From Bacillus sp. ISL-37 (GTDB taxonomy: Bacteria > Bacillota > Bacilli > Bacillales > Cytobacillaceae): 64,000 bases of DNA. The notes under the pieces are model-generated. The model worked only from the letters and a program-made list of their open reading frames with translations, was not told where the DNA came from and made no database searches. The stretch is from NCBI RefSeq assembly GCF_018613315.1, contig NZ_JAGGQL010000012.1:10257-74256 (forward strand). Direction: 5' to 3'. The first letter of the stretch is position 1. The number at the start of each line of letters is the position of its first letter. Of this stretch, positions 2,014 through 15,104 are shown piece after piece. A program made the position numbers and the translations under genes.

Positions 2014-2277
2014 TTGGCTACACGTCAATCGGTTGACCAGTTACTTCAGCAATGTGAGGATGCAATCAATCTGGCCCAGGATCAATACAAGGATGCCGCT
2101 ACTCAGCAGCATTATAATGACGGCGATTTTACCAATGCACTGCAGGCGCTCGAGGATGCATATAATGATCTGGCCAAGCTTTCCTTTAGCGCAAACTCCC
2201 AGCAGCGCGAACAACTGCACAGAATGAGGCTTCAACTGCAGCAAGTCCAAAACAATATGATTTTGCTTGATCATTAA
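2014..2277 (+). CDS. ytzC: small helical protein, YtzC family (DUF2524)
   Basis: A protein of 87 residues, rich in Gln and predicted almost wholly alpha-helical, beginning ATRQSVDQLLQQCEDAI. The TTG at 2014 is chosen because AAAGGAGG sits at the right distance (1999-2006); an upstream in-frame ATG at 1909 has no such site and would add non-conserved sequence. The gene is divergent from ytqA. Family function is unknown. Confidence 0.8.
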   Translation: MATRQSVDQLLQQCEDAINLAQDQYKDAATQQHYNDGDFTNALQALEDAYNDLAKLSFSANSQQREQLHRMRLQLQQVQNNMILLDH

Positions 2278-2293
2278 ACAGGAGGGGAAAATC

Positions 2294-2473
2294 TTGAAAA
2301 AGCGCTCAAAGCAGAACAATCCTGAACAAAAAACAAGGAACGGCATCAATAACCAGGATCTAGAGCTCGGAATGGACCATGATCCGGTAAAAGAAGCGAA
2401 GAAAAAATATGAACAAAGCGGCGGGCAGCCCGTAAAATCAAAATTCCATCCTGAACCAGAGCAATCTTCATAA
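2294..2473 (+). CDS. small charged protein of unknown function
   Basis: A 59-residue, highly charged, low-hydrophobicity protein starting KKRSKQNNPEQKTRNG. The TTG at 2294 follows a strong AGGAGGGG. The gene starts 16 bases after ytzC and shares its terminator, so the pair forms an operon. Composition (Lys, Asn, Gln, Gly, no aromatic core) resembles minor small spore proteins, but I do not recognise the family and assign no function. Confidence 0.6.
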   Translation: MKKRSKQNNPEQKTRNGINNQDLELGMDHDPVKEAKKKYEQSGGQPVKSKFHPEPEQSS

Positions 2474-2483
2474 ATTTGTAACA

Positions 2484-2516
2484 CCCTCACTTCCAAAAGG
2501 AAGTGAGGTTTTTTTG
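2484..2516 (+). terminator. intrinsic terminator after ytzC operon
   Basis: The stem CCTCACTTCC-aaaa-GGAAGTGAGG is followed by a run of seven T. Confidence 0.9.
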
Positions 2517-2523
2517 ATTTTCT

Positions 2524-2653
2524 CTCGAGAATTGTCCAGCTCCAGCGCCTAGCCCCTCGAGTCGCTTTGGTCCGCCCAATGAAGTCAAAGAACGACTTCA
2601 CCGGTCGGCCCTCCAGCGCTTGTCGGGGCTGACCAAGGCGCTTTCGCTTTTCT
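2524..2653. repeat. mosaic structured repeat R1, copy 1 (short form)
   Basis: About 130 bp. The ends pair as AGCGCC-t-AGCCCC (2544-2556) with GGGGCT-gaccaa-GGCGCT (2625-2642), and an inner hairpin GAAGTC-aaagaac-GACTTC is present. The same element recurs at 45784, 47322 and, inverted, at 53584. The short reading frame MKSFFDFIGR in these elements is not a gene. Confidence 0.85.
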
Positions 2654-2698
2654 AATAATACCCCCCGTTCACAAATCGGATAAAACTGACGAAAATTC

Positions 2699-2714
2699 CG
2701 TGATTTATATCACA
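2699..2714. promoter_or_regulatory. Fnr/CRP-type palindrome upstream of ccm-nrf run
   Basis: CGTGA-TTTATA-TCACA matches the Bacillus Fnr consensus TGTGA-N6-TCACA at nine of ten positions. A -10-like TTTAAA preceded by TG lies at about 2737-2742, roughly where a class II Fnr promoter centred at -41.5 would place it. The leader would be about 135 nt. Confidence 0.6.
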
Positions 2715-2836
2715 GAAGGGGAGCTTTTAGAAATGGTTTAAATAAGGTAGACCAAAAAGGGTCTTGAGGAAAATAAAGTTTCATTTTGGAAAAATCCCTA
2801 GCCAAAATAAATTGTCATTTTCAATGTAAGTTGTCT

Positions 2837-2852
2837 TGTGAAAACATTCACG
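2837..2852. promoter_or_regulatory. second Fnr/CRP-type palindrome
   Basis: TGTGA-AAACAT-TCACG again matches TGTGA-N6-TCACA with one mismatch. It lies only 32 bases before the first start codon, too close for a standard class II activator site, so it may modulate or block transcription from the upstream promoter. Confidence 0.45.
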
Positions 2853-2883
2853 AATTTGTCACATATAGAAAGGAGCCAATCAA

Positions 2884-3843
2884 ATGAAAGTTATGAAGTT
2901 ATTATCGGCCATCATTTTATTATTCATATTCCAGTTGCCTGATAAGGGTAGTGCTGAGACAAAATCCAATGTCCTGAATATGGAGGAGCTGACGATCCAG
3001 GTGATGCCAGAATATTCGTATCACCCAAAAGATAAGAAGAAGAATGCCCCACTTTTGGTCGGCTATCATGGAGCATTGAAGAACAATGCAGAAGAAGCAC
3101 AAAAAGGCCAGGTAGTCATCCCGCTGCCAATGGATGAGAAGAATTTCAGGATTGGTTTTGTTGCTGATTACTCTCGTGACCTGACTGAAATGAATGAAAT
3201 TCAATATGAACTTGATAAGGAAAACGGAACGATTTCCTGGGAAACGAGCGAGGAAATACAGCCGCAGGAGATCTACAAGTTTGTGATTGAGTACTATACC
3301 AACAGCATCCAGGAAAAAGACGACACTAAGACACTGACTTACGAATTTAAAAACTTCGCTGATATCGGATTGTTGAATTTGATTTTTGTTGAGCCGCTTA
3401 ATTCGGAAAGCTTCAAGCTGGAGCCTGCTTCCGAGCAGCACCAGAAAAACTCTTACAACATGAACATGTTCCTCTATCAAAGCCAGGGAATGAAGCCTGG
3501 TGATGAAAAGAAGATCTCACTTGAATACAAACGAGCTGACGATAGGACTACAGCGGAAATCATGGAGGCTATGGCCGGGGATGCAAAGAAGGCCGGCACC
3601 GTAAAACAAAATGATGAAAAAATGCCTTTGTGGCTTGTCATTACAGTCGTTGGCAGTGTGTCAATTTTTGCGGCAGTACTATTGATTTTCATCATGAAGA
3701 AAAAGAAAGTAAAGCCGGTTAAAGATGATGCTTCAAATGATTATGAAGCCAAAAAGTCAAAGCTCCGTGCCATGCTGGTGGAAGGAAGCATTACCGAAGT
3801 GGAATACAACGAATTAATCAAAAAGCTGGGAGGTAGGAATTAA
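2884..3843 (+). CDS. membrane-anchored exoprotein heading the ccm-nrf run
   Basis: A 319-residue protein I do not recognise by family. It has a signal peptide (residues 1-25, cut near GSAET), an extracytoplasmic beta-rich domain (about 30-235), one membrane helix (about 247-270, PLWLVITVVGSVSIFAAVLL), a KKKK stop-transfer and a cytoplasmic tail ending in a SHOCT-like helical hairpin (LRAMLVEGSITEVEYNELIKKLG). A good AAAGGAG precedes the ATG. Its stop overlaps the ccmE start by one base. Position at the head of the operon implies a role in cytochrome c maturation or in NrfHA assembly; this is inferred from context only. Confidence 0.8.
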   Translation: MKVMKLLSAIILLFIFQLPDKGSAETKSNVLNMEELTIQVMPEYSYHPKDKKKNAPLLVGYHGALKNNAEEAQKGQVVIPLPMDEKNFRIGFVADYSRDLTEMNEIQYELDKENGTISWETSEEIQPQEIYKFVIEYYTNSIQEKDDTKTLTYEFKNFADIGLLNLIFVEPLNSESFKLEPASEQHQKNSYNMNMFLYQSQGMKPGDEKKISLEYKRADDRTTAEIMEAMAGDAKKAGTVKQNDEKMPLWLVITVVGSVSIFAAVLLIFIMKKKKVKPVKDDASNDYEAKKSKLRAMLVEGSITEVEYNELIKKLGGRN

Positions 3844-8225: not shown

Positions 8226-8905
8226 TTTCGATCCTTAAAGATGCGTGGACGATCGCCAGTAAAGACCTGAGCAATGAGATCAAAACAAAGCAGACGATCA
8301 GCATGATGGTCATCTTCTCGAGTCTCGTCGTCCTGATCTTCAGCTTTGCTTTCGATCCGACAAACAATATGGTAAAGGCCGTCATTCCAGGGCTCGTCTG
8401 GCTGATTACCGTGTTTTCCGGAATTCTGGGGCTGAATCGTTCCTTTCTTTCTGAACACGAAAACGATGCCCTGACTGGGTTGCGTTCGGCACCAATCGAC
8501 CCTTCCAGCATCTATCTTGGAAAGGTGTTAGCGAACTTCATCCTCGTAACGGCAGTACAGCTGGTCAGCATTCCAGTCTTGTTCCTGCTGTTCGACTACC
8601 GCTTTTTTGGAAAAGTGAGCTGGTTCATTCTTGTGGTCATCATCGGTACGCTCGGTTTCATCATCGTCGGGACCTTCCTGGCCGCGCTATCGGCAAACGC
8701 CAAGAACAGCGAGATGCTTTTGCCGGTTTTGCTGCTGCCGTTGCTAAGTCCGTTGCTGATCGCCGGGGTCCAGGCAACAAGGATCATTCTTGAAAATGAA
8801 ATGATTGCAGATGCTGCTTCATGGATCAGGCTGATGGGTGCTTACGATTTATTGTTCCTGGCTGCGTGCTTTTTCTTATTCGAATTTATTATGGAGGGAT
8901 CTTGA
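8222..8905 (+). CDS. ccmB: ABC transporter permease CcmB
   Basis: A 227-residue protein with about six membrane helices and the CcmB signature region near LNRSFLSEHENDALTGLRSAP (contact loop for the ATPase). It is the membrane partner of CcmA. Start and stop overlap the adjacent genes by four and one bases. Confidence 0.9.
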   Translation: MISILKDAWTIASKDLSNEIKTKQTISMMVIFSSLVVLIFSFAFDPTNNMVKAVIPGLVWLITVFSGILGLNRSFLSEHENDALTGLRSAPIDPSSIYLGKVLANFILVTAVQLVSIPVLFLLFDYRFFGKVSWFILVVIIGTLGFIIVGTFLAALSANAKNSEMLLPVLLLPLLSPLLIAGVQATRIILENEMIADAASWIRLMGAYDLLFLAACFFLFEFIMEGS

Positions 8906-9615
8906 TGAAAAAGAATACTGGCATTATCGACCGGCTGTTGCTGTTTACGTTGATTCCGTCATTTTTTATTGCACTTTATCTGATTTTTATATGGTCACCT
9001 GTTGAAAGGATAATGGGCGCTTCACAGAAAATTTTCTACTTTCATGTGGGCAGTGCCTGGGTAGCCTTTTTGGCCTTCGGAGTCGTTGGCTATTACAGCG
9101 TGAGGGTGCTGATCAAACCAAGACTCCAGCATCATATCAATGCCGGAATTTCCGCAGAAATCGGCGTTCTGTTTACAACGATAACGCTGATTACCGGGAT
9201 GATCTGGGGGAAATCGAGCTGGAATACGTGGTGGACATGGGAGCCGCGTCTTGCGACAACACTGATTCTATGGTTCATCTATGTAGCTTATCTTTTCGTC
9301 CGCAAGATGGATGGTTCAACTGAAAAAATCGCCAGGCTGTCAGCTGTTTTTGGCATCATTGGCGCCATCAATGTCCCGATTGTTTTCATGGCCATCCGCT
9401 GGTGGAACACGAAGCTGCATCCAGTCGTCTTCGGTGAAGGCAAAAACCAGTCCGGCGGCGGAATTGAACCAGATATGCTCGTCGCACTGCTGTTCTCGAT
9501 TTTTACGATTACCGTGCTGTACGCGTTCCTAATGCGCAAGGGGATTGAAATTGAAAAAATGAGGCACATCGTCAAAAAGGCAAAGTCAAAAGCAATTGAA
9601 AAGCTTGCAGGCTAA
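8905..9615 (+). CDS. ccmC: haem exporter/transfer protein CcmC
   Basis: A 236-residue membrane protein with six helices. The WWD motif is WGKSSWNTWWTWEPRL (residues about 98-113), with Glu where most CcmC proteins have Asp. Conserved flanking histidines are present (FYFHVGSAW and the later KLHPVV). It loads haem on CcmE. The ATG at 8905 follows ATGGAGGGAT and overlaps the ccmB stop by one base; a longer frame from 8821 has no ribosome site and overlaps ccmB. Confidence 0.92.
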   Translation: MKKNTGIIDRLLLFTLIPSFFIALYLIFIWSPVERIMGASQKIFYFHVGSAWVAFLAFGVVGYYSVRVLIKPRLQHHINAGISAEIGVLFTTITLITGMIWGKSSWNTWWTWEPRLATTLILWFIYVAYLFVRKMDGSTEKIARLSAVFGIIGAINVPIVFMAIRWWNTKLHPVVFGEGKNQSGGGIEPDMLVALLFSIFTITVLYAFLMRKGIEIEKMRHIVKKAKSKAIEKLAG

Positions 9616-9635
9616 TTACTAAGGAGGAATTTAAA

Positions 9636-9767
9636 ATGACTTACTTATTCATGGCTTACTCAGTTATTTGGACGTTGATCGCGGGTTATGTAGTAGTGCT
9701 TGGCCGCCGCCAGAAGCAGCTGAAAAAAGAGCTTGAACTACTTGAAGAATGGAACTCAGATTTTTAA
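9636..9767 (+). CDS. ccmD: CcmD-like 43-residue membrane peptide
   Basis: A 43-residue frame starting MTYLFMAYSVIWTLIAGYV, with one membrane helix (about 4-22) followed by basic residues and a short acidic helix ending LLEEWNSDF. A near-perfect AAGGAGGAA ribosome site lies upstream (9621-9629). CcmD peptides have exactly this plan and normally follow ccmC; they stabilise the CcmABC-CcmE complex. Too short for most gene finders. Confidence 0.85.
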   Translation: MTYLFMAYSVIWTLIAGYVVVLGRRQKQLKKELELLEEWNSDF

Positions 9768-9783
9768 AAAGCGGGTGAATAGA

Positions 9784-10290
9784 ATGGGCAAAAAGATTGT
9801 TCCGGTCATTGTCATCGCTGCCGTCATCGGAGTTCTCGGCTTTTTGGTCAGTGGACTGGAAGGAAAAGCATCGGCCCAGCCTGGTGACCAGTCCATCGAT
9901 TTTGAGCTGCAGGATATCGAAGGCAACACTTATAAATTATCGGATTTTAAAGGCCAGCCAGTGGTCCTTAACTTTTTCGCAACCTGGTGCGCACCGTGCA
10001 TTGACGAAGCTCCTGAACTGGAAGCGTTCGGCAAGGAGTATAAGGATGCAAAGCTTTTGATCCTCGCGAAAGGTGAGTCAAAAAAGCGGATGGCAAAATA
10101 CATCTCGGAAAGCGGCTCTGAGCTTACGTATCTTTTAGATACAAAAGAAGACATTTCAAAAGATTACAACGTCATCGGCCAGCCTGAAACCATCATCATC
10201 GACGGGAACGGAGTCATTGTTGAACGTTTCTCCGGCCCGACAACGAAAGACGATTTAATCAGTATGATCCAGGAAAAAGTTTCACCATAA
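9784..10290 (+). CDS. CcmG/ResA-type thiol-disulfide oxidoreductase
   Basis: A 168-residue protein with an N-terminal signal anchor (about 4-25) and a thioredoxin fold. The active site is FFATWC69APC72, with the TlpA/ResA-style continuation IDEAPELEAF and a cis-proline loop (IGQPETII). It should act outside the membrane to keep the cysteines of apocytochrome CXXCH sites reduced. The ATG at 9784 has GCGGGTGA upstream, 16 bases after ccmD. Family naming (CcmG, ResA, TlpA) is interchangeable at this level. Confidence 0.87.
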   Translation: MGKKIVPVIVIAAVIGVLGFLVSGLEGKASAQPGDQSIDFELQDIEGNTYKLSDFKGQPVVLNFFATWCAPCIDEAPELEAFGKEYKDAKLLILAKGESKKRMAKYISESGSELTYLLDTKEDISKDYNVIGQPETIIIDGNGVIVERFSGPTTKDDLISMIQEKVSP

Positions 10291-10320
10291 CCTTGGTTAA
10301 AGCACATCCGTGTTTTAATA

Positions 10321-10403
10321 AAGCTGTTTTCGCAGAAAGCTGCTAATCGACTAATGTAAAACAGGAGTAAGTTTTTTAAGGTAAAATCAAGCGAAAACAG
10401 CTT
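10321..10403. other. long-range 13-bp inverted repeat between ccm and nrf genes
   Basis: AAGCTGTTTTCGC (10321-10333) and GCGAAAACAGCTT (10391-10403) are perfect complements separated by 57 nt. The right arm is followed by TTTAGTAG, only a short T run. In mRNA this would form a large stem-loop between the maturation genes and nrfHA, suited to processing, differential stability or attenuation. Confidence 0.6.
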
Positions 10404-10446
10404 TTAGTAGATTGCGATAATCCGCTTTAAGGGAGGTGAGAAAAAG

Positions 10447-10971
10447 ATGCTGAAAAAGCTACTGGGAATAGACAAAAAGATGCTGTTATTCATTGGCGTA
10501 TTTGCTGGAATCATTGTTTCTGTCGTCACTGTCAAAACGCTTGCTTATACGGATTCACCTGAATTTTGCTCAAGCTGCCATATAATGACAGAGGTCCATG
10601 ACTCGTTCTCTGATTCCAACCACGCCGGTCTGTCCTGCGGTGACTGCCACTTGCCGCATGATACCATGGTGAATAAATATACCTATAAGGCAAAGGCCGG
10701 AATGACGCATGTGTATTTCAATACACTAGGCGAGGCAAAAATCCCTAAGGTGCTGCACGCAACAGAAGGTTCCGAAGAAGTCATAAATGAGAACTGCATC
10801 AGTTGCCATGAGAGTACGCTGGACAACGTTTCACATGATGCGAAAGACAGCTGTTCAAGCTGCCACCAGGCAGTGCCGCACGGCAAAGGCTTTAAAACAG
10901 AAGACTATTTTAAACCGCCGAAACCTGGCGAGCTTTTAGAAAATAAAGGAGGTACGATGAACAATGGCTAG
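10447..10971 (+). CDS. nrfH: cytochrome c nitrite reductase quinol-oxidising subunit NrfH
   Basis: A 174-residue NapC/NirT-family tetrahaem cytochrome. One N-terminal membrane helix (about 15-33) is followed by four CXXCH sites at residues 41, 64, 117 and 136. It takes electrons from menaquinol and passes them to NrfA. GGGAGGTGAG precedes the ATG. Its last eight bases overlap the nrfA start, typical for a tightly coupled complex. Confidence 0.93.
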   Translation: MLKKLLGIDKKMLLFIGVFAGIIVSVVTVKTLAYTDSPEFCSSCHIMTEVHDSFSDSNHAGLSCGDCHLPHDTMVNKYTYKAKAGMTHVYFNTLGEAKIPKVLHATEGSEEVINENCISCHESTLDNVSHDAKDSCSSCHQAVPHGKGFKTEDYFKPPKPGELLENKGGTMNNG

Positions 10972-12397
10972 AAATTTCCGCTGGGCATTCTTGCTCCTTG
11001 CGGCTGTCATGCTCATCATAACAGGCTGCTCCGGTTCGGAAGAAGAAGCAACTTCCGCAAGCGAGCTGAAAACGGGGCTGAGCAAAGACGAAATCAGCAA
11101 TGAGGCCTTTAAGGACCTTTTCCCGCTGCAATATGACAGCTACAAGCAAAATGAAAAAATGGAGGATACGAAGTACAGCGGTTCCGTCAAACGAAGCAAG
11201 TTCGACCATGATAAGGAACCGTATCTGCCAGTCCTTTTTAACGGCTATGGCTTTGCGACTGAGTACAATGAGGATCGCGGCCATATCTATGCAAATGAGG
11301 ATGTCCGGGCAATCGCGCGTATCACTGACAAATCAATCGGATCATGCTTAACCTGTAAGTCGACTGCTGTTCCTCACATGATTGAGGAAATGGGAGACGA
11401 TTACTGGGGCGGCAATTTTAACGAAGATATCTGGCCAAAAGCAGAAGCGATGGGTCATTCACCAATCGGCTGCTCGGACTGCCACGATCCACAGACAATG
11501 GACTTGAGGGTTACCCGTCCAAGCTTTATCAAGGGAATGGAATCACAGGGAATCGACATGACCAACCCAACGAAGAATGATATGAGGAACTATGTTTGCG
11601 GCCAGTGCCACGTAGAGTACTATTTTGCTGCAGATAACGGAGAAGTAACTTATCCTTGGGCAAACGGCTTCGAGCCTGAAGATATGTACGAGTATTATGA
11701 GACAACCGCAAAGGAACAAGGCTTTGAAAAAGACTGGGTCCACAACGTTTCAGGAACACCTATGCTAAAAGCACAGCACCCTGACTTTGAGACTCATATC
11801 GAAGGCCCGCATGGTGAAGCAGGAGTTACATGTTCAGACTGTCACATGCCATATGACAGGGTAGACGGCAAAAAGAAAATAAGCTCACACTGGTGGACGT
11901 CACCGCTTAAGACGATGGACCAGTCATGCGCAACCTGCCATACCAACAGGGATATGGATAAACTGAAAGAGCGTGTAATCGGTATCCAGGATAAACATAT
12001 GGAAGCACTTCATAAAGCTGAGGATATTTCGATTACCTCACACTATTACGTGAATAAGATGATTACTTCTGGAGTAAGCGAAGAAAAGGTTAAGCAAGCT
12101 CAGGAGCATATCAGAAAAGGACAATGGTTCTGGGATATCGTCGCGGCTGAGAGTGCGGCAGGATTCCATAATCCGCAGGGAGCAATGGATTCATTGAGAG
12201 TATCGATTGAAGAGTCGAATGAGGCGATCAATCTTGCCATCGAGGAATTGACAAAGAAAGGCGTAAACCTGGAAGAAGTCAAAGAAGAGATTGAAAAAGT
12301 GAAGAAGGCTGTTTACGACGAAAAAGATAACTTCAAGAAGAAAGAAAAAGCAGTCAATAGTTACTTCCCAGCACAACAGCCAGCTCCGAAAAAATAG
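10964..12397 (+). CDS. nrfA: ammonia-forming pentahaem cytochrome c nitrite reductase NrfA
   Basis: A 477-residue enzyme for six-electron reduction of nitrite to ammonium. It has a lipoprotein signal (lipobox LIITGC, Cys near 21), expected for a Gram-positive enzyme tethered outside. The catalytic haem site is CLTCK at residue 128, followed by four CXXCH sites at 170, 212, 290 and 322. The CXXCK lysine ligand marks true NrfA. It starts at ATG 10964 after AAAGGAGG. The neighbouring ccm genes probably exist to mature this unusual haem site. Confidence 0.95.
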   Translation: MARNFRWAFLLLAAVMLIITGCSGSEEEATSASELKTGLSKDEISNEAFKDLFPLQYDSYKQNEKMEDTKYSGSVKRSKFDHDKEPYLPVLFNGYGFATEYNEDRGHIYANEDVRAIARITDKSIGSCLTCKSTAVPHMIEEMGDDYWGGNFNEDIWPKAEAMGHSPIGCSDCHDPQTMDLRVTRPSFIKGMESQGIDMTNPTKNDMRNYVCGQCHVEYYFAADNGEVTYPWANGFEPEDMYEYYETTAKEQGFEKDWVHNVSGTPMLKAQHPDFETHIEGPHGEAGVTCSDCHMPYDRVDGKKKISSHWWTSPLKTMDQSCATCHTNRDMDKLKERVIGIQDKHMEALHKAEDISITSHYYVNKMITSGVSEEKVKQAQEHIRKGQWFWDIVAAESAAGFHNPQGAMDSLRVSIEESNEAINLAIEELTKKGVNLEEVKEEIEKVKKAVYDEKDNFKKKEKAVNSYFPAQQPAPKK

Positions 12398-14371: not shown

Positions 14372-14545
14372 AAAATTGGGGATGTGCGGCACCAGAGTTT
14401 GTCTGGACTGAAGAAGGCGCCTGCTCCTATCTAATCAGTCACAATTTATGCATTTTTTCTCGATAAAAAATGCATATTTTACATCTAATATAGGACTGTG
14501 AGATTATGATATAATCATACTTTGAAAGACAAGGGGGTGATTGGG

Positions 14546-15073
14546 TTGAAATTTAAAATCCTCGGAATTGCGTTTTTGGCTGCGGGTTTATTAACTGCCT
14601 GTAGTGGCGGAGAAGAATCTGCTGAACCTGAAAAACAACAAGAAAACATCAAGGAATTGGTGAGTGATTACAGCACGGGCAAAATTAAGGGCCACAATGC
14701 TTCCATCACCTCACAAGAGCTGACAGTTGCTGACAGTGAAGGGGACAAGCAAGTCTATGATATCTCGGAAGAAGACTTCTTCGTCTCAATCGCGCCTTAC
14801 GAAAATCAAACCCATCCTTGAACGAATCATAGCTTGACAGGTTGTCAAGGTGAACTAGTTGAAAAAGAGTTTGATGTATATATTGAGGATGAGGATGGAA
14901 ACGTGGTCGTTGACGAAAAGATGATGTCATACCAGAACGGTTTCATCGATTTGTGGCTCCCGCGTGATAAAAAATTCAAAACAAAGATTGGATATAACGG
15001 TAAAACTGTTGAATCAGAAATATCCACTTTTGAGAATGACGCCACTTGCATTACAACAATGCAGCTAATGTAG
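14546..15073 (+). CDS. cueP: CueP-type copper lipoprotein with in-frame UGA (selenocysteine candidate or nonsense)
   Basis: A frame of 175 codons interrupted only by TGA at 14819-14821 (codon 92). The N-terminus has a lipobox (LLTAC). Text around the stop reads SIAPYENQTHP-UGA-TNHSLTGCQGEL; in CueP proteins, as I remember them, the UGA position is a conserved cysteine eight residues before the cysteine of TGCQ, and both bind copper with a third Cys near the C-terminus (here TCITTMQ). The downstream part is otherwise undamaged. A hairpin CTTGACA-ggt-TGTCAAG begins 11 nt after the UGA. Start TTG at 14546 follows AAGGGGGTGA. CueP is an extracytoplasmic Cu(I)-binding protein. Either Sec insertion, a fresh nonsense mutation or a sequencing error could explain the stop. 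Confidence 0.8.
14833..14849 (+). promoter_or_regulatory. SECIS-like hairpin 3' of the cueP UGA
   Basis: CTTGACA-GGT-TGTCAAG is a perfect 7-bp stem with a G-first loop 18 nt downstream of UGA, within the 16-37 nt window described for bacterial SECIS elements. Caution: the conserved peptide LTGCQ itself favours this complementarity. Confidence 0.35.
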
Positions 15074-15077
15074 ATTA

Positions 15078-15104
15078 AAGCACCTTTTTTAGGTGCTTTT
15101 TTTC
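15078..15104 (+). terminator. intrinsic terminator after cueP
   Basis: AAGCACCT-tttt-AGGTGCTT followed by TTTTT. Confidence 0.92.

Follow-up and report, generated by a model that had tools for sequence, protein, structure and literature searches.

An in-frame UGA at a metal-site cysteine points to selenocysteine in CueP proteins of Bacilli

Does the in-frame TGA in the cueP gene of Bacillus sp. ISL-37 interrupt that gene, or does it encode selenocysteine (Sec) at the metal site of the protein? The gene lies in a window of 64,000 nucleotides, which is the whole stretch of DNA analyzed here, and the original prediction was that it might encode a new selenoprotein. The evidence set out below makes us highly confident that cueP is a genuine selenoprotein gene, and we consider it evenly balanced whether the selenium is a direct copper ligand.

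The cueP gene and its product

The cueP frame contains a single internal stop, the TGA at codon 92 (Table 1). The read-through product scored 151.8 bits against the Pfam CueP profile PF21172 (E 1.2e-44; cut-off 27) and 186.7 bits against NCBIfam NF038094 (cut-off 60), and both matches cover the two sides of the TGA. The UGA had also been proposed to replace the cysteine that follows HP in CueP proteins, eight residues before the TGCQ cysteine. This placement held in the alignment with Salmonella CueP (PDB 4gqz; E 1.5e-34), where the TGA stands opposite the cysteine of THPC. The distances from the UGA to the TGCQ cysteine (8 residues) and from there to the C-terminal TC (68 more) are identical in 4gqz. 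By alignment, the TGA codon is at the position equivalent to Cys96 of Salmonella CueP; we take Cys96 and Cys172 to be the correct numbers in that protein, and the spacing of 8 and 68 residues supports them.

Positions 92, 100 and 168 are invariant as Cys or UGA among 31 aligned homologues. The N-terminus carries a lipobox, LTAC, whose Cys19 is invariant in the same homologues, which makes an extracytoplasmic lipoprotein the probable product. An AlphaFold model built from 31 relatives had pLDDT values mostly above 90 beyond about residue 33, and superposed on 4gqz with a TM score of 0.84-0.85. The TTG start is conserved among close relatives, and cueP appears to be a single-gene unit.

Table 1. 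Features of the cueP locus, in window coordinates
Feature	Coordinates	Strand	Basis
Perfect 12-bp inverted repeat TATGCATTTTTT-CTCGAT-AAAAAATGCATA, 5' of cueP, possible operator	14447..14476		sequence
Ribosome-binding site AAGGGGGTGA, 5 nt 5' of the TTG start	14531..14540	+	consensus inference; kept in close relatives
cueP coding sequence, TTG start to TAG stop, 175 codons including one Sec codon; predicted extracytoplasmic lipoprotein	14546..15073	+	profiles, lipobox, homologues
UGA codon, proposed Sec92, at the Cys of THPC in Cys homologues	14819..14821	+	alignment, conservation
Putative bacterial SECIS hairpin, 7-bp stem CUUGACA/UGUCAAG, apical loop GGU (14840-14842)	14833..14849	+	sequence, covariation, SECIS model
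Codon of Cys100 (TGT), aligned to Salmonella CueP Cys104 in LSGCQ	14843..14845	+	alignment
TGC codon for Cys168, third of the invariant cysteine positions in mature CueP	15047..15049	+	31 homologues; 4gqz alignment
Intrinsic terminator-like hairpin closing the single-gene unit	15077..15099	+	sequence

The inverted repeat upstream of cueP is conserved across most close Mesobacillus relatives and was not found in other genera. Within 3 mismatches it is present as a single copy in the genome, with no regulon, and it is possibly the operator of a cueP-specific regulator. Further upstream, at 8821-12397 of the window, is a cluster of genes that we named, from reading their ORFs and with no profile search, as cytochrome c maturation-type, NapC/NrfH-like multiheme and NrfA-like ammonia-forming nitrite reductase genes.

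Selenocysteine machinery in the host

The original prediction hinged on selA, selB, selD and a tRNA-Sec gene in the same genome, and all four were found. The host genome (G000, 4.74 Mb) contains a tRNA-Sec with anticodon UCA that scored over the cut-off (67.1 bits), and profile searches of the genome recovered selA (563 bits) and selB (358 bits). The selB and tRNA-Sec searches covered the window's own genome, and selA was surveyed across relatives. The selD gene lies near selA and has an in-frame TGA of its own, within a GUGCK motif (L010, complement of 2115-3179); read through, it scored 401.6 bits against TIGR00476. Two formate dehydrogenase (FDH) alpha genes also contain an in-frame TGA (L099, G000:C5:15400-17421; L103, G000:C60:140735-141487). 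The machinery together with these TGA-bearing genes indicates that the host already uses Sec decoding. A reassignment of UGA to tryptophan was rejected: the non-TGA loci that were read all have Cys at the aligned position, and the genome has tRNA-Sec, selA and selB.

Conservation of the UGA across Bacilli

In a first survey of 156 homologous loci, which drew on two collections so that some genomes were counted twice, codon 92 was TGA in 118, TGT in 31 and TGC in 7. Three further TGA loci were found in another order. After the addition of class-level loci, the distinct proteins numbered 93 with TGA and 58 with Cys. TGA-type cueP is present in several families of Bacilli, one of them outside the order, and down to roughly 50% protein identity. 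The nearest named relative by CueP is Mesobacillus selenatarsenatis (97% identity), and CueP matches in plasmid records were all distant (<60% identity). It had been proposed that relatives would keep UGA at this codon along with the hairpin; both are kept, and TGC or TGT is confined to a part of the relatives.

An in-frame stop usually marks a pseudogene, and automated annotation would tend to call it so; cueP is probably recorded as a broken or truncated gene in many genomes. A gene broken by a nonsense mutation, or a sequencing error, is nevertheless practically negligible as an explanation of this locus. Many assemblies carry the identical TGA, about 120 loci in all, and none of these stop-bearing loci has TAA or TAG at codon 92. 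The three metal-site positions are all retained. Downstream of the UGA the median dN/dS is ~0.14, which indicates that the sequence past the UGA is under purifying selection. The conserved TGA and the conserved downstream protein refute the pseudogene and error explanations.

TGA-type cueP is found together with selA. Within the family, 85 of the 87 genomes with TGA-cueP have selA, and the two without it are drafts that are 81% and 80% complete. Cys-cueP genomes of the family divide into 8 with selA and 8 without; the 8 that lack selA, none of them with TGA in cueP, agree with expectation. In other families, selA over the cut-off was present in all six TGA-cueP genomes, and in the 46 genomes where no selA exceeded the cut-off, cueP never has TGA at codon 92. 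These co-distribution and locus counts come from related species and hence lack phylogenetic independence. Only 11 changes between Sec and Cys are required on the CueP tree. Across five independent pairs on supported branches the hairpin stem tracks the Sec/Cys state in four, but five pairs are too few to reach significance (sign test p ~0.125).

One pair of loci, L066 (TGT) and L067 (TGA), is identical at 505 of 537 nucleotides, with the stem in both, and this is consistent with a recent Sec/Cys switch. With Sec and Cys forms as similar as these, nature itself provides a test of what Sec contributes at a metal site. In some genomes cueP of the Sec type is present in two or three copies (G210: L095, L124 and L125; G066: L123 and L164; G129: L105 and L163), and G102 has one TGA and one TGT copy (L126, L157). 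Such genomes would permit a comparison of the two forms within one genome.

A SECIS hairpin conserved beyond the protein

The hairpin (CTTGACA-GGT-TGTCAAG) starts 11 nt after the UGA, with 18 nt between the UGA and the GGT loop. The bacterial SECIS model allows a loop of 3-9 nt, a stem of 4-16 bp, a G in the first two loop positions and a distance of 16-37 nt from the UGA (PMC13188914). The 7-bp stem, GGU loop and 18-nt spacing in cueP satisfy this model, confirming the original description of a hairpin within bacterial SECIS limits. The spacing from UGA to GGU is identical in cueP, in both host FDH genes and in E. coli fdhF; for the second host FDH gene the count was taken by eye from the printed sequence. 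About 120 loci, some with only ~50% protein identity, share the TGA, this spacing and the hairpin, which argues that the hairpin is more than chance.

The original prediction included the doubt that codon choice for the conserved LTGCQ peptide might by itself produce the hairpin. Cys-type cueP serves as a control for this, as the peptide is nearly unchanged in the Cys forms. Codons 97-101 are the five positions of lowest codon entropy among 59 comparable ones in the TGA forms only, whereas codons for the same residues vary normally in the Cys forms (Leu97, for example, is TTA in 17, TTG in 10, CTA in 5 and CTT in 1). Between pairs of TGA forms, the synonymous difference averages 0.03 for codons 97-101 versus 0.73 for the rest of the gene. 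Of the 93 distinct TGA proteins, 92 have the complete 7-bp stem, as against 2 of the 58 distinct Cys proteins.

The stem also varies, mostly in ways that keep its pairing. In L038 and L169 it reads TTGGCA-GGT-TGCCAA, a compensatory change from A-U to G-C, and in L176 and L179 it reads CTGGCA-GGT-TGTCAG, a change from U-A to C-G plus a G-U. L147, another TGA form, carries a G-U in the stem, and the TGA locus L185 has lost one pair and retains six of seven. The stem is kept in three Cys loci, L066, L092 (with the same sequence there as L066) and L107, which are explicable as recent Sec-to-Cys changes. An origin of the hairpin in codon choice alone was thus rejected by the synonymous freezing, the compensatory changes and the contrast between TGA and Cys forms. 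This pattern indicates that the putative SECIS element is conserved as an RNA structure beyond protein coding in the TGA forms.

Hairpins are able to stimulate readthrough, and the case for Sec insertion in CueP is sequence-based. The UGA could accordingly be read through with an ordinary amino acid, or act as a regulatory stop, with no Sec involved. Against this, the UGA falls exactly on a metal-site cysteine, TGA-cueP among complete genomes is present only where selA occurs, and the spacing and loop match both the FDH SECIS elements and the bacterial SECIS model. We therefore consider non-Sec readthrough or regulation very unlikely and favor insertion of Sec.

A predicted role for Sec92 at the metal site

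In the selenoprotein that we propose, UGA 92 would be decoded as Sec by SelB and tRNA-Sec(UCA) during translation of CueP, guided by the GGU-loop hairpin that itself codes for LTGCQ. Sec-CueP would then be exported and lipid-anchored. Outside the membrane, a site formed by Sec92, Cys100 and Cys168 could bind Cu(I), perform thiol/selenol redox chemistry, or both. Sec92 would be a second donor of the metal site, alongside Cys100; Cys-type CueP has three cysteines at this site, whereas the host protein would have Sec92 and two cysteines. A selenolate is a softer donor than a thiolate; the selenol is the stronger acid and, once oxidized, is more readily reduced again. Because of these properties, selenium could tighten Cu(I) binding, limit over-oxidation outside the cell or add redox activity. 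A copper-ligand role for Sec92 is plausible.

Sec92 might instead serve redox chemistry, such as peroxide or disulfide reduction or the reduction of Cu(II), with no part in copper ligation. Most selenoproteins are redox enzymes (PMC13188914), and Sec92 would be only 8 residues from Cys100. In Salmonella, CueP receives Cu(I) from ScsB and ScsC, which bind the metal and form a disulfide reductase system (as cited in PMC13201067). On the other hand, the CueP family is known for copper binding, and C104 of Salmonella CueP, which corresponds to Cys100 of the host protein, forms a metal-thiolate complex and abolishes CueP-conferred copper resistance when changed to serine (C104S; PMC13201067). We put a redox role just short of an even chance. 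The redox and copper-ligand roles are not exclusive, and they compete on function only, within the reading of CueP as a selenoprotein.

Extended to the many genera of Bacillaceae and the other families of Bacilli in which TGA-cueP occurs, a copper-ligand role would make CueP a surface-anchored selenoprotein whose selenolate coordinates Cu(I) directly. It would be an extracellular, selenium-ligated copper chaperone or detoxifier that has repeatedly been swapped with a Cys form, a picture that we would accept and doubt in equal measure.

A candidate new selenoprotein family

CueP is missing from the main table of a 2026 compilation of 119 prokaryotic selenoprotein families and subfamilies, whose supplements might differ (PMC13188914). 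In the literature searched, CueP was never joined in a relevant way with selenoprotein or selenocysteine, and none of the June 2026 NCBIfam models that match CueP names a selenoprotein. The selenoprotein part of the original prediction is supported by the machinery, the conservation and the SECIS element, and its newness applies within the literature searched. We rate CueP as a new form, with Sec, of a protein family already known, and hence, by the criteria customary in computational work, as a candidate new selenoprotein family. In Mesobacillus and many of its relatives from soil and sediment, selenocysteine appears to stand at a metal-site cysteine of the surface CueP.

If true, this adds one more selenoprotein family and ties selenium to surface copper handling in common Bacilli, aerobic or facultative ones, a group on whose selenoproteins the literature searched says little. 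The minimal and strictly conserved cueP hairpin may also offer a clean element for studies of SelB recognition in Bacillus relatives.

Comparison with known systems

The closest characterized protein is CueP of Salmonella enterica (4gqz), for which copper binding and copper resistance are known (PMC13201067). It shares with the host CueP the family, the fold, the three metal-site positions and an extracytoplasmic location. It differs in having Cys where the host has UGA, and in being a soluble periplasmic protein, whereas the host CueP is a predicted lipoprotein of a Gram-positive bacterium. Close homologues include the Cys-type CueP proteins of Oceanobacillus, Virgibacillus and other Bacilli, which are up to ~62% identical; these have TGT or TGC at codon 92, and the hairpin is usually absent.

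For the decoding signal, the nearest parallel is the FdhA SECIS of E. coli fdhF and of the host copies, which has the same arrangement of UGA, 18 nt and apical GGU. FdhA belongs to another protein family, and the local hairpin in cueP is shorter, with little lower stem. Sec in copper- or metal-handling proteins has precedents in the CopZ-family (2Fe-2S)-binding proteins and the SO_0444 family Cu/Zn efflux transporter (PMC13188914), both from families unrelated to CueP.
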